From Nitrospira sp. (GTDB taxonomy: Bacteria > Nitrospirota > Nitrospiria > Nitrospirales > Nitrospiraceae): DNA of 41,761 bases. Position 1 is the stretch's first letter. Every line of letters starts with the position of its first letter. The stretch covers positions 1 to 41,761 of the forward strand of contig JAHFEW010000015.1 in assembly GCA_023248215.1 (NCBI GenBank), given 5' to 3'. A model generated the notes under the pieces. It was given only the letters and a program-made list of their open reading frames with translations. It was not told the origin of the DNA and searched no databases. Below are positions 530 through 36,329 of this stretch, piece by piece. The translations under genes and the position numbers were made by a program.

Positions 530-1047
530 GCACATCCGTCCGCTATTTGCTGCTCGGATTGCTCAGCCTGGCGATCGTCGTGGTGGATCAAATCACCAAA
601 GTCTACGTCATGCAGACCATGCGCCTGCATGAGTCCATTTCGGTGATTTCCGATTTCTTCAGCATCACCTACATTCGCAACCCCGGCGCGGCGTTCGGGT
701 TTCTGTCCTCCAGCAGCGGCACGTTCCGCTTCGTGTTTTTTGGACTCACGTCGATCTTTGCCGTGGGATTGCTGGGCACCATTCTGGTGCGCATGCCGAA
801 GCACGACTGGATGGGCCAGCTCAGCGTGGTTGCGATTCTCGGCGGGGCGATTGGGAATTTACTGGATCGGCTGCGGTACGGGGAAGTGATCGACTTTCTG
901 GACTTCTACATCAACGGTTACCACTGGCCGGCCTTCAATGTGGCCGACTCGGCGATTACCGTCGGGGTGGTGTTTCTGATCCTCCACTTCGCGTTCGAGA
1001 AGCATCCCGATGATGCTCCCGTTCTCCAGGAGAACCGTCCCTCCTAG
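526..1047 (+). CDS. lspA: Lipoprotein signal peptidase (signal peptidase II)
   Basis: Inner-membrane aspartyl protease that removes the signal peptide of prolipoproteins after lipidation. The product has 173 aa, normal for the family. Conserved boxes are VDQITK (about residue 20), RNPGAAFGF (51-59), GNLLDRLRYGEVIDF (110-124) and FNVADSAI (137-144); the catalytic aspartates should be D123 and D141. Four hydrophobic membrane segments are evident. The start is TTG at 526, overlapping the ileS stop by four bases, so translation is probably coupled. The TAG stop lies one base before a palindromic repeat element. Several lipoprotein substrates are encoded in this window (3068 and 40920). Confidence 0.96.
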   Translation: MSTSVRYLLLGLLSLAIVVVDQITKVYVMQTMRLHESISVISDFFSITYIRNPGAAFGFLSSSSGTFRFVFFGLTSIFAVGLLGTILVRMPKHDWMGQLSVVAILGGAIGNLLDRLRYGEVIDFLDFYINGYHWPAFNVADSAITVGVVFLILHFAFEKHPDDAPVLQENRPS

Positions 1048-1344
1048 CAGGATGTTGAAAAAGTCCGCCAGCTTTGTACAGACACCGGGCGCTCACTAAC
1101 TCGCGCCCGTGCGCAAACGTAACGCTCCTTACTCGTCGCGTCGCGCACCTCAGAGGCTCAACGTACGGCTATGGGAACAGAGCCTGTCCCGGCAGGGTCA
1201 GGGTGGGCGGGTAAGAATGTTACGATTCGCCTCGAAGACACTGCCGGCTCACCATCTCGCCGGCGTCCACAAACGTGGCGCTCATTATGCTTCGCGCCGT
1301 GGACCTCGCTGCGGCCGCGCCGGACGGCCTTTTTGAACATCCTG
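1048..1344. repeat. Palindromic intergenic element, copy A
   Basis: This non-coding element begins CAGGATGTTGAAAAAG one base after the lspA TAG stop and ends CTTTTTGAACATCCTG, so its ends form inverted repeats. It matches copy D (12420-12670) in opposite orientation over both outer arms of roughly 110 bases each with few differences; the centres differ. The T-run near each end next to GC-rich arms could act as a terminator for either direction. With the following bases it accounts for the 399-base gap between lspA and the DUF2024 gene. Confidence 0.85.
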
Positions 1345-1393
1345 CGAGTGCTTCTATCTGTGCCTGAGATACAGAGCGGTTTGCTATTTCGAG

Positions 1394-1418
1394 GCTGTTA
1401 GAAAGGTTTTTCAACAGC
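1394..1418. repeat. Short palindrome, possible terminator
   Basis: GCTGTTAGAAA and TTTTTCAACAGC form an imperfect inverted repeat with a T-run. A similar short palindrome follows the ABC ATPase at 12348-12371. It lies between repeat A and the end of the minus-strand DUF2024 gene and could terminate either neighbour. Function is inferred from shape only. Confidence 0.4.
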
Positions 1419-1446
1419 TCTCCTAGCCCTTCCCTTCCCTTCCCGA

Positions 1447-1716
1447 CTAGGCCGACAATGGCACGATGAACCCGCCTTGATCGCGGAATTGCCGCTGCTG
1501 CGCTTCCGAAAACATGACGAGCGGCTCGCTGTGGCAGAATTGGCATTCCTTGAGGGTGATGACCGCCTTCGGTTCCCCGATTCCCACCAGATACTGCTTG
1601 GCGAGCGTGAGGGCCTGGTCTTCATTCGTCGTCATCACGTCAAAGTGCAGCCTGCCGTTCTTGCCGTCGACCCAGGTGTCGTACACATGCACGGTATCCA
1701 TCTGGTTGTTTCTCAT
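1447..1716 (-). CDS. DUF2024 family protein
   Basis: Small cytoplasmic protein of 89 aa resembling the DUF2024 family, whose function is not known to me. Recognisable features are VHVYDTWV near the N-terminus, a LHFDVMT strand, the stretch AKQYLVGIGEP, and CQFCHSEP near the C-terminus, where the Cys/His set could bind metal. The frame stays open further upstream, but the ATG at 1716 is preferred because AAGGAG lies ten bases before it. It follows uppP on the same strand but is separated from it by repeat B, so co-transcription is uncertain. Confidence 0.75.
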   Translation of the reverse strand: MRNNQMDTVHVYDTWVDGKNGRLHFDVMTTNEDQALTLAKQYLVGIGEPKAVITLKECQFCHSEPLVMFSEAQQRQFRDQGGFIVPLSA

Positions 1717-1812
1717 GTCGGCTCGGCTCCTTGTTAGCAGGTTACGAACATACTCTTTCACCCCTGTCATCGTCAGAGGCATCGAGATTTCAAACAACAA
1801 TAGATGGGGATA

Positions 1813-1935
1813 CAGGATGCTCAAAAAGGCTGTCCAGCAAGGCCGCAGCGAGTGAAGGGCCGAGGCGTACCCTTAGGGTACGTTGAGGGTCTGAACGAAG
1901 CGAGAACGCCGCTGGCGGACTTTTTCAGCATCCTG
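1813..1935. repeat. Palindromic intergenic element, copy B
   Basis: Short copy (123 bases) running from CAGGATGCTCAAAAAG to CTTTTTCAGCATCCTG, with GC-rich arms and the inner inverted pair GTACCC/GGGTAC. Its right end is the exact reverse complement of the left end of copy C over more than 30 bases. It separates uppP from the DUF2024 gene and may end uppP transcription. Confidence 0.85.
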
Positions 1936-1945
1936 TTAGGTTCGA

Positions 1946-2821
1946 TTAGCGGACGACCAAAAGCACAATGATGCCCAGCACCATGCGGTAGTAGGCGAAC
2001 ACGCGGAGGCTGTGGCGTTGGACGAATGTGAGGAAGGCGGCGATGACGGCCCAGGCGACGACGAACGAGACCAGCAGTCCGATCCCAAGGGCGACATAGT
2101 CTTGTTGACTGAACGCTGCTTGCGATTTCAGCATTTGGTAGATCGTGGCGATGATCATCGTAGGGAGCGCCAAAAAGAAGGAATATTCGGTGGCGACGCG
2201 CCGGTCGAGACCGGCCAGGAGACCACCGACAATCGTCGAGCCGGAACGGGACATGCCTGGAATCAAGGAGACGCATTGTGCGAGGCCGATCCAGAGGGCC
2301 GAGCGCGGTGTGACCTGGAGCAGTTCCCTGACGCGCACGCGGTCCCGCATCCGTTCGACCGCCAAAATGATGATGCCCCCCACGATCAACGAGGCTGCAA
2401 CCGTGGCTGGGGTGAACAGATAGGCCTTGATCGACTTATGGGCGACGAATCCCACGAGGGCCGCGGGTAGAAAGGCCAATCCCAATCCGATGACGAACCA
2501 CAGGTTGGGCTGGGCCTGAATGGACTTCTGAATGAGCGTCGTCCAGGGGGTGTTCCCGCGAGCAGCCACCAGCGATCGAAAGTCGCGCTGTTCACGGAGG
2601 GTGTGGGAGGCCAGTGCCGCGAGCTTCGTGCGTTCGTAGGCGATGATGGCCAAAATCGACCCAAGCTGGATCGAGATCTCCACATTCGAGGCGATGTCTC
2701 CCGTGAATCCGAGGGCATGCCCGGCGAGAATGAGATGGCCCGTGGAGGAGACGGGAAGAAATTCCGTCAGTCCTTCGATAATGCCGAGAATGACGGCGAG
2801 CTCCGGGCCCCAGTTCATCAT
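1946..2821 (-). CDS. uppP: Undecaprenyl-diphosphatase (BacA/UppP family)
   Basis: Integral membrane phosphatase that converts undecaprenyl diphosphate to the monophosphate, recycling the lipid carrier for peptidoglycan and other envelope polymers. The product has 291 aa with about eight hydrophobic segments. Both signature boxes are present: EGLTEFLPVSSTGH (residues 16-29) and PGMSRSGSTI further on, which carry the catalytic Glu, His and Arg residues. Two ATG codons stand in tandem at 2821 and 2818 with no Shine-Dalgarno sequence; an AT-rich TATTTTATT precedes them directly. The gene is transcribed away from the lipoprotein gene at 3068, leaving a divergent intergenic region. Confidence 0.95.
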   Translation of the reverse strand: MMNWGPELAVILGIIEGLTEFLPVSSTGHLILAGHALGFTGDIASNVEISIQLGSILAIIAYERTKLAALASHTLREQRDFRSLVAARGNTPWTTLIQKSIQAQPNLWFVIGLGLAFLPAALVGFVAHKSIKAYLFTPATVAASLIVGGIIILAVERMRDRVRVRELLQVTPRSALWIGLAQCVSLIPGMSRSGSTIVGGLLAGLDRRVATEYSFFLALPTMIIATIYQMLKSQAAFSQQDYVALGIGLLVSFVVAWAVIAAFLTFVQRHSLRVFAYYRMVLGIIVLLVVR

Positions 2822-2986
2822 AATAAAATAGGATGGTAGTGGAGATGCTGGTGGTGTGTGGTTTCGCTGAACAGTCGGTGCATATTCCCAAACTGTTCTC
2901 CTGCAGTCAAGCGTCGTCGGCTTTTGTGGATGAGGTCACAGGCTGCGACCGGTTCGCCGGCCGGTGCTCCACAATCGGCAAACATA

Positions 2987-3015
2987 TTGACAAACTGTGG
3001 TTCTTGGCATACACA
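2987..3015 (+). promoter_or_regulatory. Candidate sigma-70 promoter for the 3068 lipoprotein gene
   Basis: A perfect TTGACA at 2987-2992 is followed after 17 bases by TACACA at 3010-3015. The -35 box is strong and the -10 box weak. It points at the gene starting at 3068 with a leader of about 45 bases. Confidence 0.4.
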
Positions 3016-3067
3016 CAACAAGAGGAAAAGAAGTCCGATCGGTTCTGATCGAACAGGGGAGGGTCGC

Positions 3068-3799
3068 ATGAGGCATGTGTGGATGGCTGGGCTCGCGCTC
3101 ATCAGCGCGATAGCCGTCAGCGGATGCGTGAGTGATAAGAAATATCATGAGGTGCTTGCCGACGCCGATGCCGCCAGGGGCGACCTGGAACGTACGCGTG
3201 CGCAGAAGAATGCGTTGGAACAACAGGTCAAGACGCTGAAGGACCTCAACGCCAAGTTTGGGTCGGAAAGCCAAATCGCCCGGGATGAGCTGCAGCGGAT
3301 CCAGCATGGTCGCGACAAAGAGCGGGACACGATTGATGTCCGGACGAAGGAGCTGGAAGACAAGGTCAAGCAGCTGACGGCGCAAAATCGGAACGTCAAG
3401 CAGGAGTATGAAGAGGCCCGCCGGCATAACGAACAATTGAAGTCGCTGGTCGCGCGGTACCAAAAGGAGATGAAGGAACGCTCCCGGTCGCTGTCGCCGA
3501 GTATGGGCTCCTCTTCCTTGACGGCTCCGTCATCCGGTTTAGGCGCGTCATCGACCAAATCGGCTCCGTCGCCTTCTGCATTCGGCGCACCGTCTGAGGC
3601 AGCTCCGACATTGTCGGTGCTCAATATCAATAAGGCCCCGTCGACCGATCTGGTGCTCTCTTTGGGCATCACTCAGGATGTGGCCGACCGAATCGTGAGC
3701 AATCGCCCCTACAAAGTGAAGGGCGAGTTGGTTGCCAAGAACGTGGTGCCGAAGGACGTGTTCGACGACATCAAGGACCGGATTACCGTCAGTCCATAA
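3068..3799 (+). CDS. Coiled-coil lipoprotein with helix-hairpin-helix-like C-terminus
   Basis: Predicted envelope lipoprotein of 243 aa. It has a signal peptide with lipobox VSGC (lipidated Cys20), then a long charged coiled coil (about residues 25-140: LEQQVKTLKDLNAK, KELEDKVKQLTAQN and similar), a Ser/Pro/Ala-rich linker (about 140-180), and a tail beginning LNINKAPSTDLVLSLGI that resembles the ComEA-type helix-hairpin-helix fold. The ATG at 3068 is chosen because AGGGGAGGG lies just before it and the signal peptide follows at once; the open frame extends further upstream without support. A perfect terminator follows, so it is probably monocistronic. The function is unknown. Confidence 0.8.
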   Translation: MRHVWMAGLALISAIAVSGCVSDKKYHEVLADADAARGDLERTRAQKNALEQQVKTLKDLNAKFGSESQIARDELQRIQHGRDKERDTIDVRTKELEDKVKQLTAQNRNVKQEYEEARRHNEQLKSLVARYQKEMKERSRSLSPSMGSSSLTAPSSGLGASSTKSAPSPSAFGAPSEAAPTLSVLNINKAPSTDLVLSLGITQDVADRIVSNRPYKVKGELVAKNVVPKDVFDDIKDRITVSP

Positions 3800-3842
3800 G
3801 TATTGTGTGCGAGCGTCCACGGCTGGTGGACCGTGCGATCGA

Positions 3843-3884
3843 GAAGGCCGTTTGCCGTCACAGGCAAACGGCCTTCGTCTTTTC
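3843..3884 (+). terminator. Rho-independent terminator
   Basis: A perfect 14-base-pair stem (GAAGGCCGTTTGCC with GGCAAACGGCCTTC), a six-base GTCACA loop and a downstream CGTCTTTT tract. It lies 44 bases after the lipoprotein stop and insulates it from the adaptor gene at 3990. Confidence 0.9.
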
Positions 3885-3989
3885 TGCACAGACCCTTGCG
3901 CGGGCATGCGGGAGCGGGCCGCTTGCTGCATCGCAAAATCGTTTCCTGGTAGAATGCCCGCATTGCTCGGTGGGGAGGATGGCCCGTTC

Positions 3990-5249
3990 ATGCGCCGTGT
4001 GAGTTTGATCGTCGGAGTGCTGGCAATCGGCCTCGCTATCGCCGGGTACGTATTTTTCAACGGCGAGCGACGACCTCCGCTGCGGTATCGCACCGTTCCT
4101 GTCGAACGAGGGACGATCGTGTCCCTGGTGACGGCAACGGGCACCATCAACCCCATTACCACGATTCAGGTCGGCAGCCAGGTATCGGGCATGATTGAAA
4201 GCCTGCATGCCGATTTCAATTCCAAGGTGAAGGCGAATCAGGTGGTGGCGCGCATCGATCCCTTTCCCTATCAGGCCAGGCGCGATCAGGCGGTCGCGAG
4301 TCTCGCCAATGCAAGAGCGGCGTTGGACAAGGCGCGGATCGATCTGGCCCAGCGTCGACGGGAATTCGATCGGGCCAAGTCGCTGATCGGACAACAATTC
4401 ATCTCACAAAACGAAGTCGACGTCGCCTTGACCGCTTCCGAAGGCGCTGTGGCGCAGCTGAAAGTTACGGAAGCCGCCGTCAAGCAGGCGGAGGCGATGT
4501 TGCAGGCGGCCGAGTTGGACCTGAAGTATACGGTGATCCGTTCACCGGTCGACGGCGTGGTGATCTCCCGGCTCGTCGAGGGCGGGCAGCGAATCTCCGC
4601 CAGCTTTTCCATTCCCACCCTATTCTTGATCGCGGAAGATGTCACCAAAATGCAGGTCGATACCAACGTCAGCGAAGCCGACATCGGTGGAGTGGCCGAG
4701 GGAAAAGCGGCCTCGTTCACGGTCGATGCCTATCCTGGTGAACAAATTCATGGACGTGTGCGGCAGGTCAGAAATGCACCCATCAACATTCAGAATGTGG
4801 TGACCTACGATGTCGTGGTCGAATTCGAGAACCCGGATTTTCGTCTGAAGCCCGGCATGACGGCGAATGTGTCCATTGTCGTGGCCAAGAAGGAGCAGAT
4901 TCTCAAGGTGCCGAATTCGGCACTCCGCTTCAGTCCTCCCAAAGGAGCTCGAGAAGTGGGGGCTGCGGCCAGGCCTGCCAAGGGTGATGAGACGGGCGGG
5001 GTGTCTGGACCAGCAGGCCGTCAGCGAGCCCTCTGGAAGCAGAACCTTAATGACGAGCTGGAGCCGGTCCCGGTAGAAATGGGTATCTCCGACGGGGCCT
5101 ATGCTGAAATCAGTTCCACGGCGATCACTGAGGGCGATCAGGTCATTATCGGTATTGAATCTCCGCGCGGAGATCGCAAGGGCGGGGATCTTCCCCCCGG
5201 GTTTGGGTCCGGGCAGCAGCGCGGTCCGCGGCGTGATCGCGGCATCTAG
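3990..5249 (+). CDS. MacA-like periplasmic adaptor (membrane fusion protein)
   Basis: Adaptor subunit that would link an inner-membrane ABC exporter to an outer-membrane TolC-type channel. The 419-aa product has an N-terminal membrane anchor (about residues 5-24), a first lipoyl half with TGTINPITTIQVGSQVSG, an alpha-helical hairpin (ANARAALDKARIDLAQRR and its partner), the second lipoyl half YTVIRSPVDGVVISR, and beta-barrel/membrane-proximal domains ending in FRLKPGMTANVSI. A Gly/Arg-rich tail follows. The ATG at 3990 has GGGGAGGA ten bases upstream. It precedes a MacB-like ATPase and permease, but a 185-base repeat element intervenes. No TolC homologue is visible in the window; the substrate cannot be told. 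Confidence 0.9.
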   Translation: MRRVSLIVGVLAIGLAIAGYVFFNGERRPPLRYRTVPVERGTIVSLVTATGTINPITTIQVGSQVSGMIESLHADFNSKVKANQVVARIDPFPYQARRDQAVASLANARAALDKARIDLAQRRREFDRAKSLIGQQFISQNEVDVALTASEGAVAQLKVTEAAVKQAEAMLQAAELDLKYTVIRSPVDGVVISRLVEGGQRISASFSIPTLFLIAEDVTKMQVDTNVSEADIGGVAEGKAASFTVDAYPGEQIHGRVRQVRNAPINIQNVVTYDVVVEFENPDFRLKPGMTANVSIVVAKKEQILKVPNSALRFSPPKGAREVGAAARPAKGDETGGVSGPAGRQRALWKQNLNDELEPVPVEMGISDGAYAEISSTAITEGDQVIIGIESPRGDRKGGDLPPGFGSGQQRGPRRDRGI

Positions 5250-5434
5250 CAGGATGCTGAAAAAGTCCGCCAGCGGCGTTCTCGATACCCGTGAAGCGTG
5301 AACGGTATCTCGCCCTTCTAAGAAAGGTTCAATGTTCAATTCTCAATGCTCAATTGAACACTCAACATTGAACATGACAGCTGCTCACGCTTCACGAACG
5401 ACGGACGAAGAGGACCGATTTTTTGAGCATCCTG
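5250..5434. repeat. Palindromic intergenic element, copy C, with heptamer core
   Basis: It starts one base after the adaptor TAG stop (CAGGATGCTGAAAAAG) and ends TTTTTTGAGCATCCTG. Nested inside are an 11-base inverted pair (GTGAAGCGTGA at 5291-5301 and TCACGCTTCAC at 5385-5395) and a core (5328-5376) of seven-base units such as TTCAATG, TTCAATT, CTCAATG and CTCAATT that is itself partly palindromic. The whole could fold into a long cruciform. It separates the adaptor from its ATPase gene. Confidence 0.85.
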
Positions 5435-5511
5435 CAAGTCTGCTCCCGCCCAGCATGGGCTTCGCTGATCGGCGGTGAAGCCGTCCAGCGCCACCAACTC
5501 GTAAGGACGGC

Positions 5512-6222
5512 ATGGCCCCCTTAATCGTCTGTGAAGATATCTGGAAGATCTATCGCGTCGGCGACGTCGAGGTGAAGGCCTTGAGAGGCGTCGATTTGAC
5601 TATTGAGCGGGGTGAGTTCGTTGCTGTGATGGGCACATCCGGATCGGGCAAGTCGACGCTGATGAATATCCTGGGTTGTCTTGACCAACCGACTCGCGGG
5701 CGATACCAACTGGATGGGTTGGATGTGGGGACGGCGAAGCCGGACCTCCTGGCGGAGCTTCGCAATCGGCAGATTGGGTTTGTGTTCCAGAACTTTAACC
5801 TCATTCCCAGAACCAGTGCGTTGGAAAATGCCCAGTTGCCGCTGTTCTACCGAGGAGTCTCGATCAAGGAGCAGCGGAAGCAGGCCGCGGCGGCGTTGCA
5901 GCGGGTTGGGCTGGCCGGCCGGGAACAGCACTACCCTGCCCAGCTTTCCGGAGGTCAACAGCAGCGCGTCGCCATTGCGAGAGCCCTGGTCGGGGCCCCC
6001 TCGATTCTCTTCGCCGATGAACCCACCGGCAATCTTGATACCGTGTCGAGTCGCGAGATTATGGGCATCCTGGCGCAGCTCAATCGTGAGGATGGGATTA
6101 CCATCATTCTGGTGACGCACGAATCCGATATCGCCGCCTATGCCTCCCGTGAACTCGTCATGAAGGATGGACAGGTCGTGCAAGATGTTCGGCGGGTCCC
6201 ACACCTGGCTGTCGTGCAGTAG
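5512..6222 (+). CDS. MacB/LolD-type ABC transporter ATP-binding protein
   Basis: Cytoplasmic ATPase of 236 aa that would drive the permease encoded directly downstream. Walker A is GTSGSGKST (about residues 41-49), the Q-loop lies in GFVFQNFNLIPR, the signature is LSGGQQQR, Walker B is [12 protein letters not shown] and the H-loop is VTHES. These are the marks of the MacB/LolD subfamily, which works mechanically on periplasmic or lipoprotein substrates. The ATG at 5512 is preceded by AAGGACG. It ends seven bases before the permease start, so the two are surely co-translated; the adaptor is 262 bases upstream beyond repeat C. Confidence 0.95.
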   Translation: MAPLIVCEDIWKIYRVGDVEVKALRGVDLTIERGEFVAVMGTSGSGKSTLMNILGCLDQPTRGRYQLDGLDVGTAKPDLLAELRNRQIGFVFQNFNLIPRTSALENAQLPLFYRGVSIKEQRKQAAAALQRVGLAGREQHYPAQLSGGQQQRVAIARALVGAPSILFADEPTGNLDTVSSREIMGILAQLNREDGITIILVTHESDIAAYASRELVMKDGQVVQDVRRVPHLAVVQ

Positions 6223-6229
6223 GAATGCC

Positions 6230-7465
6230 ATGGTTGCCTTTATTCTGTTGACCGTCATGACCGCGTTGCGGGTGCTCAGCCGAAACCGCCTTCGTGCCGG
6301 CCTGACCATGCTTGGCATTGTGATCGGCGTGGGCGCAGTCATTGCCATGGTGAGCATCGGACAGGGAGCCCGCGCGGCGGTACAGGCACAGGTGGCCAGC
6401 ATGGGGACGAACGTGATCATCATCATGCCGGGGTCCACGACGGTGAGTGGTGTGCGGGGAGGGCAGGGCGGGGCGGTGACGTTGACGGTCGGAGATGCGG
6501 CCGATCTGAAAAAGCGGAGCCCCTTGCTGTCGGACACCGGATGGGCGAAGCGGGAGGTGATGCAAATCGTCAACGGGAACCGCAACTGGAACGGTCCGGT
6601 CAACGGCATCTCACCGAGCTATCTCACCATCCGCGATTGGTCGTTCATGAGCGGAGGGGCGTTTACGCAGACAGATATGGAAGGTGCCGCCCGAGTGGCG
6701 TTGATCGGTCAGACGACGCTGGAAAACTTGTTTGATCCAAGCGAGGAGGCGATCGGCGCAACGATCCGGATCAAAAATGTGCCGTTTCAGGTCGTCGGGG
6801 TATTGGCGCCCAAGGGCCAGTCGGCCCAAGGCTCCGACCAGGATGACGTCATTTTCATTCCCTTCACGACGGCCGAGCGGAAGGTATTCGGCAGCCAGTT
6901 CTTAGGATCGGTAGGGGCCTTGTTCGCTTCAACGGAGCAGAGCGCTGATTTGCCCGAGGCGGTTGAGCATATTCGCGAGGTGTTGAGGACCCGCCACCGC
7001 CTTCGGGCCGAGCAGGCGGATGACTTCACCATCCGTACCCAGGTCGACATCGGGAAGGTGCAGGAAGGCACGAGTCAGACCCTCACGGTCATGCTGTTTG
7101 CCATCGCCTCGGTGTCGCTGCTGGTCGGCGGCATCGGCATCATGAATATTCTCCTGGTCTCGGTCACGGAGCGAACGAGAGAAATCGGGGTGCGCATGGC
7201 GGTCGGTGCAAAGCGAGTGCATATCCTCACGCAGTTCCTCATCGAAGCCGTGACCTTGAGCCTGTTCGGCGGCATCATCGGTGTGATCGTGGGCATCGTC
7301 GGCGCCAGGCTCACGACCGCGATTGCGGGATGGCCGACGATCATTTCTCTCGATTCCATCGTTAGCGCCTGTATCTTCTCGCTGGCAGTCGGACTCTTTT
7401 TCGGCCTCTACCCTGCCAATAAGGCCGCTCGACTCAACCCCATCGAAGCGCTTCGCTACGAATAG
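6230..7465 (+). CDS. MacB-like ABC transporter permease
   Basis: Inner-membrane permease of 411 aa with the MacB layout: one N-terminal membrane helix (MLGIVIGVGAVIAMVSIG, about residues 27-44), a large periplasmic domain, then three C-terminal helices with the FtsX-domain signatures VGGIGIMNILLVSVTERTRE and IGVRMAVGAK. It ends in PIEALRYE, as is typical of the family. ATG at 6230 is preferred (AGGA just upstream, seven bases after the ATPase stop). In E. coli MacB the ATPase and permease are one chain; here they are separate. Together with the 3990 adaptor this forms a putative tripartite exporter. Confidence 0.94.
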   Translation: MVAFILLTVMTALRVLSRNRLRAGLTMLGIVIGVGAVIAMVSIGQGARAAVQAQVASMGTNVIIIMPGSTTVSGVRGGQGGAVTLTVGDAADLKKRSPLLSDTGWAKREVMQIVNGNRNWNGPVNGISPSYLTIRDWSFMSGGAFTQTDMEGAARVALIGQTTLENLFDPSEEAIGATIRIKNVPFQVVGVLAPKGQSAQGSDQDDVIFIPFTTAERKVFGSQFLGSVGALFASTEQSADLPEAVEHIREVLRTRHRLRAEQADDFTIRTQVDIGKVQEGTSQTLTVMLFAIASVSLLVGGIGIMNILLVSVTERTREIGVRMAVGAKRVHILTQFLIEAVTLSLFGGIIGVIVGIVGARLTTAIAGWPTIISLDSIVSACIFSLAVGLFFGLYPANKAARLNPIEALRYE

Positions 7466-7548: not shown

Positions 7549-8787
7549 TCAGCGGACGGCTCGTTCGAACTCCGCAGGTATCGTTCCCAAGACCGAACGG
7601 ATCCCGCGTATTGGAGCCTGTTCATCCTGGTTGGCGAGGTCGATGACGAGCGGGACGATGTAGGGTGTACCCGAGGGGTCGTGCGTGATGGTGACGATGG
7701 GTTGGTGCAGCTTTCCGGAGTTAATGACGGAGACGACGGCTCGTTCCCCCGTGGTCAGTGCGATATAGCTATAAACCGGGTAAATGCCCAGCACTTTGAC
7801 GAAGAGCGAGACCAGTCGGTTCTCGTATTTTCCTTCCTGCCCTTCCTGATAGAGCCGTTGCAACGACTGGTGCGGGGTCAGTGGCGAGGCGCCACCGAAT
7901 CCTGTCAGGAGCTCGTCGTAGCGGTCCGTCACCATGACGATACGCGTCATATCTGAGGTGAACGCACCTCCGGTTTCAGCGGGAAATCCGCTTCCGTTCA
8001 AATAGGCATGGTGCTCTGCCACAATTTGCTCGACCGAGGGGGCGAATCCACCTTGGCGCTCGAGCAGAATCGCGCCGGAGCGCGCATGGGATTCATAGGT
8101 CCGGCGGTTCGGCTCCGACAGGGTGGTCGAAGTATCGTGAATACGTCGGAGAATGGTCGGCGGTACCTGCAAGAGCCCGATGTCATGCAAAAGCGCGCCG
8201 GTGGCGAGATCCTGCAGTGTGAAGAGATCGTAGGCCGCGGCGTGGGCGAGAATCATCGAAAAGCTGCAGGTGGCGAGTGCATGCTCGCTGAGGGACGTGT
8301 TCCCCTCGCGGCCTTGGCTGAAGGCCATGAACAAGGCGTGGGTTGTCAGGGTTTTGGCCACGGCATCGATTTCATGGATGGTGTGCTCGGCCTTCTCCAG
8401 ATCGACGATGCCCGTTTCGGCGATGTGTGAAAAGGTTGAGTGCACCGATCGTTCGAGTTGCCGGCGTGCTGCCCGGGCGGCCTGCAGTTCCTGCGTCATC
8501 ATGGCGAGGGACCGGACGGCAGGTGGGCCCACCGCCGGCGTGGAGACCGGCTGAAGGATGGCCTTCGGCCGGGTTGGAGGAGGGTTGGATGCGTCCGACA
8601 CGTCGATGCCACGGGCGGGATCGATCTTCAGGTGTTTTACGCCGGCGCGCCGCAACTTCTCGATCTGCTCGTCGGTTCGAATTAAAAACGAATGCCGTAG
8701 AAAGGGCGAACGAAACCAAGCCACGTCCAATTTTGCGACGTGCATGCCGATCCGAAGCGAATCTATGGAGATTGGTCGGTATGCCAT
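7549..8787 (-). CDS. DUF3391 plus HD-GYP domain protein (putative c-di-GMP phosphodiesterase)
   Basis: A 412-aa cytoplasmic signalling protein. The N-terminal 60 residues match the DUF3391 type often placed before HD-GYP domains, followed by a Pro/Ala-rich linker, and an HD-GYP domain from about residue 110. The metal-binding HD is at 201-202 (LLHDIG) and a second His pair at 259-260 (EHH). The family signature is altered: the Lys usual after HDIG is Leu, and GYP reads GFP within LNGSGFP. Hydrolysis of c-di-GMP is therefore plausible but not assured. The ATG at 8787 has no good Shine-Dalgarno; a downstream ATG at codon 15 is an alternative. It is the last gene of a minus-strand run with HTH, mraZ and RusA-like genes. 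Confidence 0.85.
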   Translation of the reverse strand: MAYRPISIDSLRIGMHVAKLDVAWFRSPFLRHSFLIRTDEQIEKLRRAGVKHLKIDPARGIDVSDASNPPPTRPKAILQPVSTPAVGPPAVRSLAMMTQELQAARAARRQLERSVHSTFSHIAETGIVDLEKAEHTIHEIDAVAKTLTTHALFMAFSQGREGNTSLSEHALATCSFSMILAHAAAYDLFTLQDLATGALLHDIGLLQVPPTILRRIHDTSTTLSEPNRRTYESHARSGAILLERQGGFAPSVEQIVAEHHAYLNGSGFPAETGGAFTSDMTRIVMVTDRYDELLTGFGGASPLTPHQSLQRLYQEGQEGKYENRLVSLFVKVLGIYPVYSYIALTTGERAVVSVINSGKLHQPIVTITHDPSGTPYIVPLVIDLANQDEQAPIRGIRSVLGTIPAEFERAVR

Positions 8788-8843
8788 AGAGTACGAGACC
8801 AGCGGACTTGTGCGGGCCCGCGCATTGTCCTCACTCTCTCCTC

Positions 8844-9479
8844 TCAGTCTCGCTGCTTGTGAGCGGGATTCTTTGGGGGAACGGCAGCTGGTGTGGCGAG
8901 GGTGGTGGGGCGAGCGGGTTCAGGTGATGCGGGCGGTGCGACCGACAACCGTATTTCCATGCGGGGGTTGTCCCGATCTTGAAACTTGTAGAGGTGGATC
9001 TCCACTACCCGGTTATCATTCAGTCCCAGACCCTCACACAACGCGTCTTGCGCGATCTTGAGTCCCCCATCGGTATCCCGACGAAGCGCAGACTCAAAGA
9101 AAAAATGAATCGACAACGAAAGGCTCGCTTGCCGCAAGATTTGTCTTAGAGTACCACGATGGGGCGATTGGGCAAGTGCAACGAGAATTTGTTGCCCGAC
9201 GAGGTCTTTGTACGCGCGTCCCTTGGCGGAGAGCAGGCGGCGCCCATTGACGGTGGCATATTGATGATTCACGCTGGGCGGGACGGGTAACGTGAGCCCG
9301 ATCGAGTCTGCAGCCACTCTCACCGTGGGGGCAGGGGGCGCGAGTCGATGCAGTGGGTTTCGGCCTTTGGTGGACGCGCGTGGTAGAACAGGATCTTCCG
9401 TAGAGAGCAGGGCCTTCTTGGACGAGGGACGAAAGGAGGTAGACCTGAACGGAATGGGGGACTGTCGAGAACGGGCCAC
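8844..9479 (-). CDS. RusA-like Holliday junction resolvase family protein
   Basis: The C-terminal two thirds resemble RusA, a dimeric endonuclease that resolves Holliday junctions: LPVPPSVNHQYATVNGRRL, SAKGRAYKDLV, then RRDTDGGLKIAQDAL and LGLNDNRVVEI, which carry the expected acidic metal ligands (D-x-D, a following D, and an ND pair). RusA is best known from phages, but no phage genes lie nearby. The start is uncertain: GTG at 9479 (used here, 211 aa) or TTG at 9488; the frame runs back into mraZ. A conserved core beginning near VADS IGLTLP suggests the N-terminal 50 or so residues may be non-essential or untranslated. The C-terminus is Pro/Ala-rich. Confidence 0.7.
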   Translation of the reverse strand: MARSRQSPIPFRSTSFRPSSKKALLSTEDPVLPRASTKGRNPLHRLAPPAPTVRVAADSIGLTLPVPPSVNHQYATVNGRRLLSAKGRAYKDLVGQQILVALAQSPHRGTLRQILRQASLSLSIHFFFESALRRDTDGGLKIAQDALCEGLGLNDNRVVEIHLYKFQDRDNPRMEIRLSVAPPASPEPARPTTLATPAAVPPKNPAHKQRD

Positions 9480-9504
9480 GCGGCGCAAGGGCCTGCCTAT
9501 TGCA

Positions 9505-9945
9505 CTAGAGAAGATTGAGGATCTTGGCCATATTTTGCTCGTACCGATCCTCTGTCTTGGAGATGTACCGCCGCCATTCAGCCGGATTCCAGATTTCCAT
9601 GCGGTGATACAATCCCACGAGGATGATTTCCTGATCTTCATCCATCGGCACGAGCTTACGAAGGCGGCCTGGAATTAACACACGGCCGGCTTTATCGATG
9701 TCCGAGGTGCCGGCTTCCGAGACTACGAAGTGCATGAACAGGCGGCTCTGGTCCTCATCCAGGGTGGTTTTGGTCCGCTCCAACACCTTTTCCCATTCCT
9801 TGGCTGAATACACCCAGAGCGACTGTTCGGCGTTTTTCAGGAACATCACCTGATTACCTTCGGCTTCGAGATGTTCTCGAAGGGGAGAGGGGATCAAGAA
9901 ACGTCCCTTTTCATCGACTTTGCAGAGATATTCCCCGGCGAACAT
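9505..9945 (-). CDS. mraZ: MraZ transcriptional regulator
   Basis: DNA-binding protein of 146 aa with two AbrB/SpoVT-type halves: GEYLCKVDEKGRFLIP at the N-terminus and SDIDKAGRVLIPGRLR in the middle. MraZ normally heads the dcw division/cell-wall cluster and represses it; here no mraW, ftsL or mur gene follows. A start at 9954 is possible, but GGAGG abuts that ATG, whereas it lies nine bases before the ATG at 9945, so 9945 (MFAGEY) is preferred. It begins 16 bases after the stop of the upstream HTH gene, with a RusA-like gene downstream, so the three are probably one transcript. Confidence 0.93.
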   Translation of the reverse strand: MFAGEYLCKVDEKGRFLIPSPLREHLEAEGNQVMFLKNAEQSLWVYSAKEWEKVLERTKTTLDEDQSRLFMHFVVSEAGTSDIDKAGRVLIPGRLRKLVPMDEDQEIILVGLYHRMEIWNPAEWRRYISKTEDRYEQNMAKILNLL

Positions 9946-9961
9946 TATCGGCATCCTCCGG

Positions 9962-10159
9962 TCAAGGCCGCGGTATTGGGCCGGAACGTTCTCGGAGCCA
10001 TCGTTCGAGGTCGGTACGTACGAAACGCCATTCCTTGCCCAGCTTGAAACCAGGCAGGTGACGGTCCTGAATGTAGCGGTAAAGCGTACGAGGGCTGACC
10101 TTGAGATAGCGGCAGGTCTCCGCCACCGTGAGGAGTTCGTTCTTGAGGTCGGTCGTCAT
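9962..10159 (-). CDS. Excisionase-type helix-turn-helix protein
   Basis: A 65-aa DNA-binding protein of the MerR-like excisionase/HTH_17 type. LLTVAETCRYLKVSPRTLYRY forms the helix-turn-helix, followed by the wing GFKLGKEWRFVRTDLERWL. Such proteins act as excisionases, phage regulators or simple chromosomal transcription factors. It is the first gene behind the promoter at 10222-10250 and lies just upstream of mraZ, so it could regulate its own operon through the palindrome at 10244-10267. No integrase or attachment site is nearby, so a chromosomal regulator is the likelier role. Confidence 0.85.
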   Translation of the reverse strand: MTTDLKNELLTVAETCRYLKVSPRTLYRYIQDRHLPGFKLGKEWRFVRTDLERWLRERSGPIPRP

Positions 10160-10221
10160 GTAGACTCAATGGAGATGTTGGTAGGAACATAAAAGCGAGC
10201 CACGGGTCCATTTCTAGGCTG

Positions 10222-10250
10222 ATGGTAGGAGACAAGGCCAATCCTGTCAA
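10222..10250 (-). promoter_or_regulatory. Sigma-70 promoter for the HTH-mraZ-rusA-HD-GYP operon
   Basis: On the minus strand TTGACA (10250-10245) is followed after exactly 17 bases by TACCAT (10227-10222). It lies about 60 bases before the HTH start and downstream of the FmdB gene, separating the two minus-strand groups. Confidence 0.65.
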
Positions 10251-10267
10251 GTGAATATTCATGACAG
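10244..10267. promoter_or_regulatory. Palindromic operator candidate overlapping the -35 box
   Basis: CTGTCA and TGACAG flank the ten-base perfect palindrome TGAATATTCA in a 24-base near-symmetrical site (one-base offset of centres). It overlaps the TTGACA box of the HTH-mraZ promoter, where a bound repressor would block RNA polymerase. There is no T-run, so it is less likely to be a terminator for the FmdB gene. Confidence 0.5.
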
Positions 10268-10273
10268 TGGAGG

Positions 10274-10618
10274 TCAGTCGAGGTCGGTAGGGCCCATGTC
10301 TGCCGATGGCAGCTGCCCTTCCTCCATCGCGGCATCTACGTCGTCTCCAAGGTCTTCACCCATTTCCTGCCCCATTTTCTTCATGAACCGGGCCATGCTC
10401 TGGGGGTCATTTTCGTCGAGCCCGCCCAGATGACTTGGATCGGCCAGGGCCTCGAGTCGCGCCTCTTCCGACTTGGGAGAGGCAAACCGTGACATGAGTC
10501 GTTCCATGTCAGGACTGTGACAGTGGCCGCAGGTCTGCTGCGGGGGGGCGCTGATGCTCAGGACCAATCGACTGGTCCGCTTTCCGCATTGCCGACAGCG
10601 ATATTCATAGATCGGCAT
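10274..10618 (-). CDS. FmdB-family zinc ribbon protein
   Basis: A 114-aa protein beginning MPIYEYRCRQCGK, the typical FmdB/CxxC zinc ribbon start. Cys8, Cys11, Cys30 and Cys33 would bind one zinc ion. The rest is acidic and low in hydrophobic residues, with DENDPQSMARFMKKMGQEMG suggesting an amphipathic helix. FmdB-type proteins have been proposed as regulators, but the general function is unknown. It starts three bases after the comF stop and is surely co-transcribed with it. Confidence 0.88.
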   Translation of the reverse strand: MPIYEYRCRQCGKRTSRLVLSISAPPQQTCGHCHSPDMERLMSRFASPKSEEARLEALADPSHLGGLDENDPQSMARFMKKMGQEMGEDLGDDVDAAMEEGQLPSADMGPTDLD

Positions 10619-10621
10619 GGA

Positions 10622-11419
10622 CTAGGCTCTCAATTCTTCTCGTTGGTTAAAGGCCGACGGCGGCAGTGACGAGTCCGGCATCATGCCGGCATCCACCGAA
10701 CGGGCGAGTGCAAGGACCGCGACGTCTTGAGCGCCGGATTCGAGCAGGATTCTGGCACATTCGTTGACCGTCGTGCCCGTAGTGAACACGTCGTCGATGA
10801 GCAGGACGCGCTTCCCGATGACTTCCTGGGGAGCGCGTAGGGCGAACGCCTTGCGAAGGTTCCGAAGGCGGGCCGAGCGCGGGAGCGTGATTTGCGGATC
10901 GGTGTCGACGATACGAACCAAGTTCCGATAGGATACCGGCCGGTGTAAGACAGGACTGATGCGGTCGGCGAGGAGCAGGGACTGATTGAACTCCCTGCGG
11001 CGAAGGCGGTTGGGGTGGAGAGGGACGGGCATGAGGAGGTCTGTCTCCAGGTTCCGGGGAAGGGCTTGGACGAGCAGCGCTCCCAGCGAATCCGCCAATG
11101 CCACCTTCCCTCGATACTTGAACAGGGCGATGGCGTCCTGAAGCGGAGGGGAGTAGGCATAGGCAGCCCAGACCTGGGTGTAATGAGGGTCGCGGGTGCG
11201 GCAGTCATGACATTCGTGGGTCGGACTATAGGCGGTGGCGGAGGGCGACGCAAAGGGGCGGTGGCATCGTGGGCAGGCCGGTCCTTGTAGGGGGCGAATG
11301 TGTCCCCAGCATTGGCGGCAGAAAAACGGAGTGGGATCGTCCGTGAGAGGCTGATCGCAGGTGGTGCAATCTGACGGCAGCAGTAGCCGTGAGGCCTGTC
11401 GGAAGATGCCTGCTAACAT
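10622..11419 (-). CDS. ComF family protein (phosphoribosyltransferase-like)
   Basis: A 265-aa protein with an N-terminal zinc-finger region (paired Cys motifs CTTCDQP, CRQC, CPRC and CHDC in the first 75 residues) and a C-terminal type I phosphoribosyltransferase fold with the PRPP loop VLLIDDVFTTGTTVNE. ComF takes part in DNA uptake in naturally competent bacteria, where it works with the translocation machinery; no other competence genes are in this window. The ATG at 11419 has AGAGG eight bases upstream. A TTGACA promoter lies at 11474-11502 (minus strand). Confidence 0.92.
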   Translation of the reverse strand: MLAGIFRQASRLLLPSDCTTCDQPLTDDPTPFFCRQCWGHIRPLQGPACPRCHRPFASPSATAYSPTHECHDCRTRDPHYTQVWAAYAYSPPLQDAIALFKYRGKVALADSLGALLVQALPRNLETDLLMPVPLHPNRLRRREFNQSLLLADRISPVLHRPVSYRNLVRIVDTDPQITLPRSARLRNLRKAFALRAPQEVIGKRVLLIDDVFTTGTTVNECARILLESGAQDVAVLALARSVDAGMMPDSSLPPSAFNQREELRA

Positions 11420-28277: not shown

Positions 28278-28313
28278 CTGGCGTTCTGAACATCCACCGG
28301 GTTCTGGTACGTG

Positions 28314-30746
28314 ATGCAATCTGACAAGCTTCAGCGTGAGGCAGCGAACGTTCTGGAATGGGCCAAGCTCTTGGATGTCCTGGCTTCCTATGCGCAGTCG
28401 ACGGTCGGTGCAGCGCACTGCCGGTCGTTACGGTTTGAGCAAGATCTTGCGCAGGCCCAGCTGCGCCAGCAGGAAACGTCCGACATGGTGCTCTTGAGGG
28501 CCGGCGTCGAGCCCTTCCCGCTGCTTCGATTTCCCAACGTGGCCGAATGGTTGGGGCGAGTGGCAAAGGGAGCCTGTTTGGAGGTGCATGAGCTACGCGA
28601 TATTGCACTGGTACTGGAATTGATCGAAGAGGTTCAGCGGTATCTCTCGCGGCACCAAGCCGACGCGCCTACGTTGAGCGCGATGGCTACACAGTTCGGG
28701 CCAGTGAGCGAGTATCGTCGGCTGCTAGTCGCCCTGAATGTCGCCATCGATCGAGACGGGTCCATGCGGGAATCGGCCAGTCCTGAATTGCATCGGCTGA
28801 TGCATCGTGCCAACGAGCTCAAGCAGCACATGCGGCACCGCCTCGACCAGATTCTGCACTCACGCCGGTACGAGGACGTGCTCCAGGAAGACTATTTCGC
28901 GCAACGAGAAGGGCGCTACGTTGTCCCGATCAAGACCGACATGCAGGGGAAAATTCCCGGCATCGTGCACGATGTGTCGGCGAGCGGCGCCACCGTGTTT
29001 CTGGAGCCCCGCGAACTCGTCGAGCTCAATAACTCCATCAAGGTGGTGGATCTCGAGGTGGAACGCGAGGTGCGGAGAATTTTGCGAGAGCTGTCTGCCA
29101 TGATTGCCCCCCACACGTCGGAGCTCGCAGTGAGTGTGGCTCTGCTGGGGCAGCTCGATGCCATCTCAGCGAAGGCAGGGCTGAGCCAACAGCTGCACGC
29201 GATTCCGCCGCGTCTCAATGTCGAGGGCCGCATCCTGCTCAGACAAGCGCGGCACCCATTCCTCGTTCTCACCAAAGAACAGGTAGTGCCGAATGACCTG
29301 GCGTTCGATGAGACCGTGCGGGTGCTCATCATTTCCGGCCCCAACACCGGCGGGAAAACCGTCGTATTGAAGCTGCTCGGGTTGTTCGCGTTGATGGTAC
29401 GCTGCGGTCTGCACCTTCCCTGCGCCCCGGAGTCGGAGATGGCCGTCTTCCCGTCGGTCTATGCCGATATCGGCGATGCGCAGGATCTGGCGCGGGACCT
29501 GTCCAGTTTTTCTGCCCATATCACTCAAATGGTACAGCTGCTGAAAGAGGTCTCCGAGGGAACGGAAGCGGGCAGAGAGCAGGCGCCGGTGCATCCCGGG
29601 CGAGCGCTCGTGTTACTGGATGAGCCGGTAACATCCACGGATCCGGCCGAGGGCGCCGCGCTGGCGAGCGCGCTGCTCTGTCGTCTGGCGGCAGCGGGAG
29701 TTAAGGTGGTGGCCACGACGCACTACAGCCTGCTGAAAGGTTTGGCGCAAGCGAGCGCGGGCTTTGCCAATGCGAGCGTCGAATTTGATCTGGACCGGCT
29801 CTCGCCGACCTATCGTCTGATCCTGGGGCAACCGGGCGGGTCGGCGGCGATCGAGATTGCCGGGCGTCTTGGGATGGATCGGTCGCTGCTTCAGGATGCC
29901 CGTGCGCGTCTGCAGGGGGATAATCGAGTGTTGGAGACCCTGTTGAATGATCTGCAGGACAAACAGCGGCGGTTGAACGATGACATGGCCGCCGCGAGTC
30001 TGGCGAAACAAGCCGCCGAACAGGCCGCGCGGGAAACCCAGGACCTGCTGACCTTCTTGCAGGAATCGGAACGAGACGAGCGGCAGGGGCTTAAGAAAAA
30101 ACTGTCCCAAGAATTTCAGCGTGCCCGGGCGGCGGTCCAAGAGACGATCGATGAGCTGAAGCGCGATCAAAAACTGATCAAGGCGAAGGAAACGAAAGTC
30201 CGGCTCACCGAACTCGAGCAGGAAGTCAGGCGCGATGTGGGTGAACCGCATGAGCCGATTCCCGTGGATCAACTGTCGGTCGGCGATGCGGTCGAGGTCG
30301 TCGGGTTGGGCATGACGGGAACCCTGCTCGAAAGTCCGCAAGGAAAAAAACGGGTGCGTCTGAAAGTCGGAGAAGGAGAAATCCTGGCCAACGTGGCCAG
30401 TTTGGCGGGGATCCCACGCGCCTCGCAGCCTGCTCGAAGTGAGCCGAGTAAAGCGAGTGCAGCCCCACCGAGACGAGGCAGCCAGACGCTGGCGCCCGAG
30501 GACATTCAGGAAACGTTCGATGTGCGCGGCCAGACAGGGGATGACGCGCTGGATGTCGTGGTGGCCGGGCTCGATCGTGCGATCCTGGGGGGAAGTCCAT
30601 TTGTGCGCATCATTCACGGGCATGGGACCGGCCGGCTCAAGGTGGCATTGCGCGAGTATTTGAAGGCGTCCCCCTACGTCGTGACATTCAGACCTGGCGA
30701 TCGCGCGGAAGGAGGAGACGGGGTCACGATTGTGGAGTTGCGATGA
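28314..30746 (+). CDS. mutS2: Endonuclease MutS2
   Basis: An 810-aa MutS-family ATPase that lacks the mismatch-recognition domain of MutS. The order is an N-terminal core/lever part, the ATPase domain with Walker A GPNTGGKTVV (about 342-351) and a Walker B region LVLLDEPVTSTDPAEGAALAS, a long charged coiled coil (about 530-640), a KOW-like patch and a C-terminal Smr domain from about 735 (FDVRGQ, HGHGTGRLK) that gives nuclease activity. MutS2 is linked to control of recombination or rescue of collided ribosomes. The usual ELGAG following the Walker B Asp reads EPVTS. GTG at 28311 and ATG at 28314 are both possible starts; no Shine-Dalgarno. Confidence 0.94.
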   Translation: MQSDKLQREAANVLEWAKLLDVLASYAQSTVGAAHCRSLRFEQDLAQAQLRQQETSDMVLLRAGVEPFPLLRFPNVAEWLGRVAKGACLEVHELRDIALVLELIEEVQRYLSRHQADAPTLSAMATQFGPVSEYRRLLVALNVAIDRDGSMRESASPELHRLMHRANELKQHMRHRLDQILHSRRYEDVLQEDYFAQREGRYVVPIKTDMQGKIPGIVHDVSASGATVFLEPRELVELNNSIKVVDLEVEREVRRILRELSAMIAPHTSELAVSVALLGQLDAISAKAGLSQQLHAIPPRLNVEGRILLRQARHPFLVLTKEQVVPNDLAFDETVRVLIISGPNTGGKTVVLKLLGLFALMVRCGLHLPCAPESEMAVFPSVYADIGDAQDLARDLSSFSAHITQMVQLLKEVSEGTEAGREQAPVHPGRALVLLDEPVTSTDPAEGAALASALLCRLAAAGVKVVATTHYSLLKGLAQASAGFANASVEFDLDRLSPTYRLILGQPGGSAAIEIAGRLGMDRSLLQDARARLQGDNRVLETLLNDLQDKQRRLNDDMAAASLAKQAAEQAARETQDLLTFLQESERDERQGLKKKLSQEFQRARAAVQETIDELKRDQKLIKAKETKVRLTELEQEVRRDVGEPHEPIPVDQLSVGDAVEVVGLGMTGTLLESPQGKKRVRLKVGEGEILANVASLAGIPRASQPARSEPSKASAAPPRRGSQTLAPEDIQETFDVRGQTGDDALDVVVAGLDRAILGGSPFVRIIHGHGTGRLKVALREYLKASPYVVTFRPGDRAEGGDGVTIVELR

Positions 30747-35546: not shown

Positions 35547-36329
35547 ATGCGACGTCGTCTGCTACGGATGATGGTCTGTCTAGTAGCGGGAGGTTGGCTT
35601 GCCGTCATTCCTCCGACGTGGGGTCTTGAATCGCCTCAACCGTCCGGCATTCCTCTTCAGACTATCTTGGAACTGGAACAGACGGCCCGTCTGTTGGCCA
35701 TTCTCCTCGACTCCGGCCGCGCGGTCATCAATGATAACCAGACGTTGTTGGATGATCCGGCGAGAGCCGACAAGGGATTCACGCCGGAGGTCTTCGAACG
35801 ACAACTGGTAGACATGTTTCGCGGACGTGCCGGCATCGATCTGCAGGAGATCCAGACGAGCACGCTGACTCCGCGGAACAAACAGCTGCTCAAACAGCTG
35901 GTGGCGGTGAGCAAACAGGTCATCGCGGACGCCCAAGCGGACCTCAATCGTCACGGGACCGGGTTCAAGGGGTTCATTCCAGCTGTGTTCGGGGCGCGGG
36001 TCGCGACTCGGTTTACCGCCGAGACCGGTGTGCGATTGAAACAGACGGCGCTGGTTCCACGGAATCCTGCCAACCGGCCGGATCCATACGAACGGGTCGC
36101 GCTGGAAGCCTTTGCCGATTCCACCTATCCCCGAGAGAAAGTCATCAGTGAGCTCGCGGCCACCAGCTCTTCTCTGCGCCTGATGTTTCCGTTGTATGCG
36201 ACAAGGCACTGTCTTGATTGCCACGGTGGACCCAAAGGGGGGCTCGACCGGACGGGGTATCCGCGGGAAGGCCTCACGTTGGGACAAAATGCCGGTGCCA
36301 TTAGCGTGCTGCTGCCGGTTACGAAATGA
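35547..36329 (+). CDS. DUF3365 (Tll0287-like) exported haem-motif protein
   Basis: A 260-aa exported protein. After a signal peptide (LLRMMVCLVAGGWLAVIPP) the sequence resembles the DUF3365/Tll0287-like domain, known as a PAS/Cache-like sensor that can carry haem. The single CLDCH motif near the C-terminus (HCLDCHGGPKGG) is a c-type haem attachment site, and NPANRPDPYERVALEAF is the usual upstream segment. ATG at 35547 is chosen over an earlier in-frame ATG at 35463 because AGGA lies before it and the signal peptide begins there. Its stop overlaps the next start (ATGA), so the two products are probably made in equal amounts. Confidence 0.85.
   Translation: MRRRLLRMMVCLVAGGWLAVIPPTWGLESPQPSGIPLQTILELEQTARLLAILLDSGRAVINDNQTLLDDPARADKGFTPEVFERQLVDMFRGRAGIDLQEIQTSTLTPRNKQLLKQLVAVSKQVIADAQADLNRHGTGFKGFIPAVFGARVATRFTAETGVRLKQTALVPRNPANRPDPYERVALEAFADSTYPREKVISELAATSSSLRLMFPLYATRHCLDCHGGPKGGLDRTGYPREGLTLGQNAGAISVLLPVTK

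Follow-up and report, generated by a model that had tools for sequence, protein, structure and literature searches.

In the order containing Nitrospira, mraZ lies outside the division cluster beside a RusA-family gene that has most likely replaced ruvC

The gene for the regulator MraZ is usually, although not by strict definition, the first gene of the division and cell wall (dcw) cluster, where it stands beside rsmH. We asked why, in a 41,761-nucleotide contig of Nitrospira sp. (JAHFEW010000015.1 of assembly GCA_023248215.1; this whole stretch is referred to as the window), mraZ lies instead between a small helix-turn-helix (HTH) gene and a gene for a RusA-like Holliday-junction resolvase. 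The explanation that we consider probable as a whole is that mraZ was displaced from the dcw cluster with its operator left behind at rsmH, and that RusA, encoded directly behind mraZ, replaced RuvC. The locus would then belong to the core genes of the order containing Nitrospira, as an operon passed on by vertical descent, rather than being a phage remnant.

An earlier sequence-only reading of the window had described an operon-like array of HTH, MraZ, RusA-like and HD-GYP-like genes, with mraZ between the first and the third. Open reading frames (ORFs) and profile matches verified the four genes, all on the minus strand, in that order and with short gaps. In the direction of transcription, the features are:

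10222 to 10250, minus strand: promoter TTGACA-N17-TACCAT, ahead of HTH-mraZ-rusA-HD and without MraZ boxes
9962 to 10159, minus strand: HTH_17/excisionase-family (TIGR01764) DNA-binding protein, 65 amino acids (PF12728, 9e-19)
9505 to 9954, minus strand: MraZ, sole copy in the genome (PF02381, 9e-30), both DxxGR half-motifs intact
8844 to 9488, minus strand: RusA-family Holliday-junction resolvase (PF05866, 6e-8), core 9305-8925, start position predicted
7549 to 8787, minus strand: DUF3391 plus HD-GYP-like protein with an altered motif (HDIGL, HHA..NG.GFP), the variable last gene of the operon

The HTH and MraZ genes are separated by 7 nt, mraZ and rusA by ~16 nt, and rusA and the HD gene by 56 nt. 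The longest ORF for RusA (9641-8844) overlaps mraZ. Because the start codon in relatives sits a few nucleotides past the mraZ stop, and because the window's clade keeps TTG at 9488, we took rusA as 9488-8844; its start is likely this TTG or the GTG at 9479. A sequence scan agreed with the proposal that all of the genes lie behind one promoter, as we found a single consensus promoter before the HTH gene (10250-10222) and none between the operon genes. The only terminator-like site on the operon strand (9138-9124) is at chance level. HTH, mraZ, rusA and the HD gene would thus form one transcript.

The genome is 99.96% complete and contains one mraZ, the copy at this locus. Its product matches PF02381 as two stretches and, with a TIGR00242 score of 93.2 bits, lies slightly below the 98.35 cut-off of that model; D.KGR and D..GR are present in 110 of 110 sequences. 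The description of this mraZ as an orphan is apt in that the gene lies away from the dcw cluster; as an extra copy, the other sense of the word, it was ruled out by the single mraZ in the genome. On another contig, C46, rsmH is followed by ftsL-, ftsI-, murE-, murF-, mraY- and murD-like genes, which were assigned from sequence reading and gene order rather than by profile scan. Because rsmH runs on into these usual dcw genes, the cluster is complete apart from mraZ. We had been prompted to check whether the cluster has an mraZ of its own, and it begins at rsmH without one. The distance between mraZ and rsmH amounts to hundreds of kilobases in every complete relative.

The operator appears to have stayed behind. 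In the literature, MraZ sites consist of GTG repeats of 7 nt, separated by 3 nt and located just after the -10 element (PMC7761207), and PMC8475190 cites AAAGTG[T/G] repeats as MraZ sites. The rsmH promoter of this genome, TTGACA-N16-TATACT, is followed just past the -10 element by GTGGGGTGAA, GTGGGTGGAA and ATGG, three repeats with a 10-bp period, and the exact triple-box pattern without mismatch occurs once in the whole genome, at rsmH. Triple GTGG boxes were present in 24 of 26 rsmH upstream regions of Nitrospirales (0.005 expected) and double boxes in all 26 (1.2 expected; both expectations come from dinucleotide shuffles). Upstream of mraZ, strict double boxes were found in none of 107 loci (0.47 expected); with a looser pattern, we found one triple box among these 107 upstream regions, 302 nt ahead of the gene in a single genome. 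Among 30 loci sampled in the phylum's other orders and classes, 29 have mraZ before rsmH (tblastn), and 24 carry a triple box just upstream of mraZ (0.01 expected).

Since the boxes are kept before rsmH and are missing at the mraZ operon, MraZ most likely acts on the dcw cluster in trans. Autoregulation, for its part, is most likely not to be expected, because the promoter of mraZ itself is without boxes. Both the binding of MraZ to the rsmH boxes and the sign of its effect on the dcw cluster are inferred. The arrangement shares with the MraZ-dcw circuits of Escherichia coli (operator details taken from later citing papers), Burkholderia cenocepacia, Mollicutes and Neisseria elongata a MraZ-family protein with both DxxGR motifs and GTGG-type repeats of 10-bp period just past the -10 element of the dcw promoter. 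It differs in that mraZ does not head the dcw cluster, the operator stands before rsmH and the mraZ promoter is boxless. In N. elongata, ectopic mraZ controls the dcw cluster, there as an activator (PMC9395523).

The mraZ-rusA pair is conserved well beyond this genome. The named relatives are Nitrospira or Nitrospirae/Nitrospiraceae, except for two metagenome-assembled genomes labeled 'Nitrosospira'. At the named Nitrospira loci, rusA directly follows mraZ in 80 of 80, and by the same rule it does so at 28 of 29 loci in a whole-genome sample of four families of the order (f1 to f4). The sequence-only reading had named a lack of conservation in relatives as what would count against it, and these counts show the opposite. 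The HTH gene accompanies mraZ at 68 of 79 named loci and the HD gene at 57 of 76. Only families f1 and f2 carry the HTH gene; it is absent from f3 and f4 and was lost in the N. defluvii clade. Because the flanking partners (HTH, FmdB and HD protein) vary between families and loci, mraZ-rusA is the constant core. Ratios of nonsynonymous to synonymous substitution rates (dN/dS) indicate purifying selection on both genes across an order, with values of 0.01-0.12 in mraZ and 0.06-0.14 in the core of rusA.

What might a RusA-family protein do in such a position? The predicted protein has ~214 amino acids, with a variable N-terminal extension of ~60 and a C-terminal extension of ~30 amino acids around the core. 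In an alignment with 1q8r and the D70N variant of that protein, residues equivalent to Arg69, Asp70, Asp72, Lys76 and Asp91 are conserved in 107-108 of 108 sequences, RRDxD[GS]GLK in 108 of 108 and NDNR in 107 of 108. The AlphaFold model (predicted local distance difference test score, pLDDT, of 87) matched 1q8r, 2h8c and 2h8e in Foldseek (E 4e-10 to 9e-8; template-modeling score by target 0.81-0.87), and E. coli RusA was its best match among solved structures. As judged from the alignment and the model, the fold and catalytic residues are those of E. coli RusA, which is encoded by the Rac prophage, and the protein would be expected to cleave Holliday junctions. Compared with RusA of E. coli, Aquifex aeolicus and phage r1t, however, the Nitrospira protein is near-universal in an order, is longer with variable tails, carries the DxDGGLK/NDNR signature and is fixed behind mraZ. 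In A. aeolicus, a RusA that is encoded on the chromosome has been reported to act as a resolvase (Sharples et al. 2002, as cited in PMC3485210), which sets a precedent.

The distribution of RusA mirrors that of RuvC. We sampled 245 genomes across the phylum (77 Nitrospirales, 11 from other orders of the class and 157 others) and found RusA in 76 of the 77 Nitrospirales, in 0 of the 11 genomes of sister orders and in 1 of the remaining 157, that one being a distant match. RuvC was found in 0, 11 and 145 of these same groups, respectively. Searches of the four-family sample detected RuvC in 0 of 61 genomes and no RecU in any of the 61. RuvB is retained in Nitrospirales. The ancestral site of ruvC reads yebC-ruvC-ruvA at 9 of 9 sister-order loci and yebC-ruvA, without ruvC, at 8 of 8 ingroup loci; two family-f3 loci, where ruvB lies without yebC and ruvA alongside, were left out of this count. 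Because the distributions of RusA and RuvC are mirror images, RecU is absent, RuvB is kept and yebC-ruvC-ruvA has become yebC-ruvA, RusA most likely replaced RuvC as the housekeeping Holliday-junction resolvase. In the 245-genome sample, the sole ingroup genome without RusA has no mraZ either, which is what one would expect if the locus that they share lies in a gap of the assembly or both genes were lost together. The replacement would resemble that of RuvC by RecU in Bacillota, which is likewise non-orthologous and likewise leaves RuvAB in place; it would differ in that the substitute is RusA, a protein of another fold, encoded next to mraZ.

In the scenario that we favor, two rearrangements would have met at this locus in the ancestor of the order, in a sequence of events that we infer. 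mraZ would have moved out of the head of the dcw cluster, leaving its operator (three GTGG boxes with a 10-bp period, just past the -10 element) before rsmH. MraZ made from its separate operon would bind the rsmH promoter in trans and tune dcw transcription, with self-control gone. A RusA of a phage-type family would have become fixed directly behind mraZ, replacing RuvC, and would act on Holliday junctions of the chromosome together with RuvAB, which was kept. The order would thus provide a natural experiment, with the operator at the dcw cluster and the gene elsewhere, in trans control without self-control. RusA looks like a further replacement for RuvC besides RecU. In these nitrifiers, a group of global importance, it appears to be the sole canonical resolvase of Holliday junctions, and it is encoded behind a division regulator. 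A survey of recombination genes left RusA out as rare and prophage-linked (PMC1193525). Our literature search, which was of partial coverage, returned no report of mraZ with RusA, of a displaced Nitrospira mraZ or of RusA replacing RuvC there.

Several points weigh against this scenario. In Mycoplasma genitalium, repression and complementation by MraZ worked only in cis (PMC8475190). RusA proteins are usually ~120 amino acids long (PMC3485210), well short of the ~214 found here. YqgF could be an alternative junction resolvase. The MraZ tree, described below, does not decide between descent of the Nitrospirales protein from the MraZ native to the phylum and another origin. Finally, we assigned the coded genomes to Nitrospirales from the named Nitrospira loci together with the order code.

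The alternative that fares best is that the neighbors are functionally unrelated: the promoter shared by mraZ and rusA would be a historical accident, and the dcw role of MraZ would be independent of its location. The turnover of flanking partners between families, with only the pair constant, fits this idea. However, the pair, mostly with short spacing, has outlasted the divergence of four families despite the reshuffled flanks, and we regard the idea as possible without favoring it. A functional coupling could take the form of one promoter that sets the levels of both junction resolution and a division regulator, so that unresolved or repaired chromosomes alter dcw expression and the HTH protein or the promoter senses the linking state; such coupling strikes us as unlikely.

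A second alternative is that a ready-made mraZ-rusA pair arrived by horizontal transfer, that its MraZ replaced the native one, and that native mraZ and ruvC were then lost, with the same function as the outcome. The MraZ tree places Nitrospirales in one clade (support 100/100) on a very long stem of 2.1 changes per site, with a weak attraction to Bacillota/Actinomycetota over other Nitrospirota, and identity is ~33% to Bacillus and Listeria versus ~30% to other Nitrospirota. Against this, a single Nitrospirota MraZ clade was not rejected (P value of the approximately unbiased test, p-AU, 0.17), and a survey within Nitrospirota showed mraZ-rusA pairs in no other order. Relocation of mraZ in place and joint transfer with rusA are both possible, and we hold the latter to be somewhat unlikely.

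A third alternative keeps RusA from housekeeping: YqgF/RuvX or RecG pathways would resolve the chromosome, and RusA would serve some secondary purpose, such as defense against phages or plasmids. Nearly all bacteria have YqgF, and a role as resolvase has been suggested for it in those that lack RuvC and RecU; the RusA of most bacteria is a prophage gene (both PMC1193525). In one relative, an additional RusA of the Nitrospirales type is encoded on an element that brings a sliding clamp and a primase of its own. We find a side role improbable in view of the almost complete switch from RuvC to RusA at the boundary of the order, with the two hardly ever found together, the strict retention of RusA at a single locus under purifying selection, and biochemical work in Deinococcus that pointed to YqgF as an RNase rather than a resolvase (PMC9601230).

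A domesticated prophage remnant joined to mraZ, which the sequence-only reading had offered as an alternative, is highly improbable. RusA and the HTH protein fall in families that are frequent among phages (PHROG 34 and PHROG 66, respectively), and for RusA the idea holds at the level of deep family origin only. Phage records gave no match for RusA, its nearest viral relatives are two viral contigs at 29-32% identity, no integrase or structural phage genes were recognized next to the locus, GC content is flat over the whole window and the locus is conserved vertically across the order. MraZ matches in 'phage' records were similarly distant (28-36% identity), and several of these records are short unannotated fragments that may be host DNA. 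The HTH protein resembles small excisionase-family (TIGR01764) regulators in its 65-amino-acid HTH_17 domain; it differs in that no integrase partner was seen and in that it has been lost or is absent in several clades where mraZ-rusA remains.

The second RusA mentioned above, of 124 amino acids, lies in a mobile-looking element of genome G060 (L249, G060:C35:36500-48000, 1015-7106). The element also encodes a homologue of the DNA polymerase III beta clamp, a primase-like protein of the CHC2/Toprim kind, a response regulator and an excisionase-like HTH protein, and a degraded copy of the 124-amino-acid RusA occurs in L250. Because this second RusA falls among family-f3 host copies in the tree (moderate support), capture from a host is likelier than a donor role for the element.

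The last gene of the operon had been taken to encode a cyclic di-GMP-type phosphodiesterase. HD-GYP phosphodiesterases are recognized by HDxGK plus HHExxDGxGYP, and the HD proteins here lack this combination: the Lys of HDxGK is Leu (HDIGL) in 24 of 24 motif-readable proteins, and HHE is replaced by HHA, HHV or HHT in 20 of 20 readable ones, with HHA..NG.GFP in the window's clade and HHA/HHV/HHT..DG.GYP in others. Of 76 loci that could be tested, 19 lack the gene, which makes it the most variable of the downstream members. Because the protein is less conserved and motif residues are missing, a role in cyclic di-GMP signaling is doubtful. Of the proposed link among division, recombination and signaling, the first two are tied at the level of gene order, and the signaling arm is weak.

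Upstream, the neighborhood extends into fmdB and then comF:

10274 to 10618, minus strand: FmdB-family zinc-ribbon protein, conserved upstream neighbor (73 of 75 testable genus loci)
10622 to 11419, minus strand: ComF/GntX-family phosphoribosyltransferase-like protein, conserved upstream neighbor, with unchanged strand at all 75 genus loci open to testing

The promoter between fmdB and the HTH gene is nearly letter-identical in close relatives, including the N. defluvii clade that lacks the HTH gene. Near-identity covers ~45 bp (window 10219-10264; L035/L036). Because this stretch, including the spacer between the -35 and -10 elements, is kept across clades with and without the HTH gene, it suggests a candidate operator for some regulator. 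A palindrome-like GACA-N10-TGTC over the spacer, noted by eye, is not kept in other Nitrospira clades and was dropped.

At the ruv locus of this genome, a small Cys-rich protein is encoded between ruvA and ruvB (L230 3511-4017). The ruvA-ruvB gap is ~500 bp in other examined family-f1 loci, and the two genes nearly abut in several sister-order loci.

Elsewhere in the window, 28311-30746 encodes a MutS2-type protein with an Smr domain, of a family linked to the handling of branched DNA; its location ~19 kb from rusA is probably a coincidence. One protein (36326-37942) joins a trypsin-like protease domain with a domain of the sulfatase-modifying-factor (FGE) type, and another (38247-40391) combines a CHASE2 sensor domain with an adenylate/guanylate cyclase catalytic domain.

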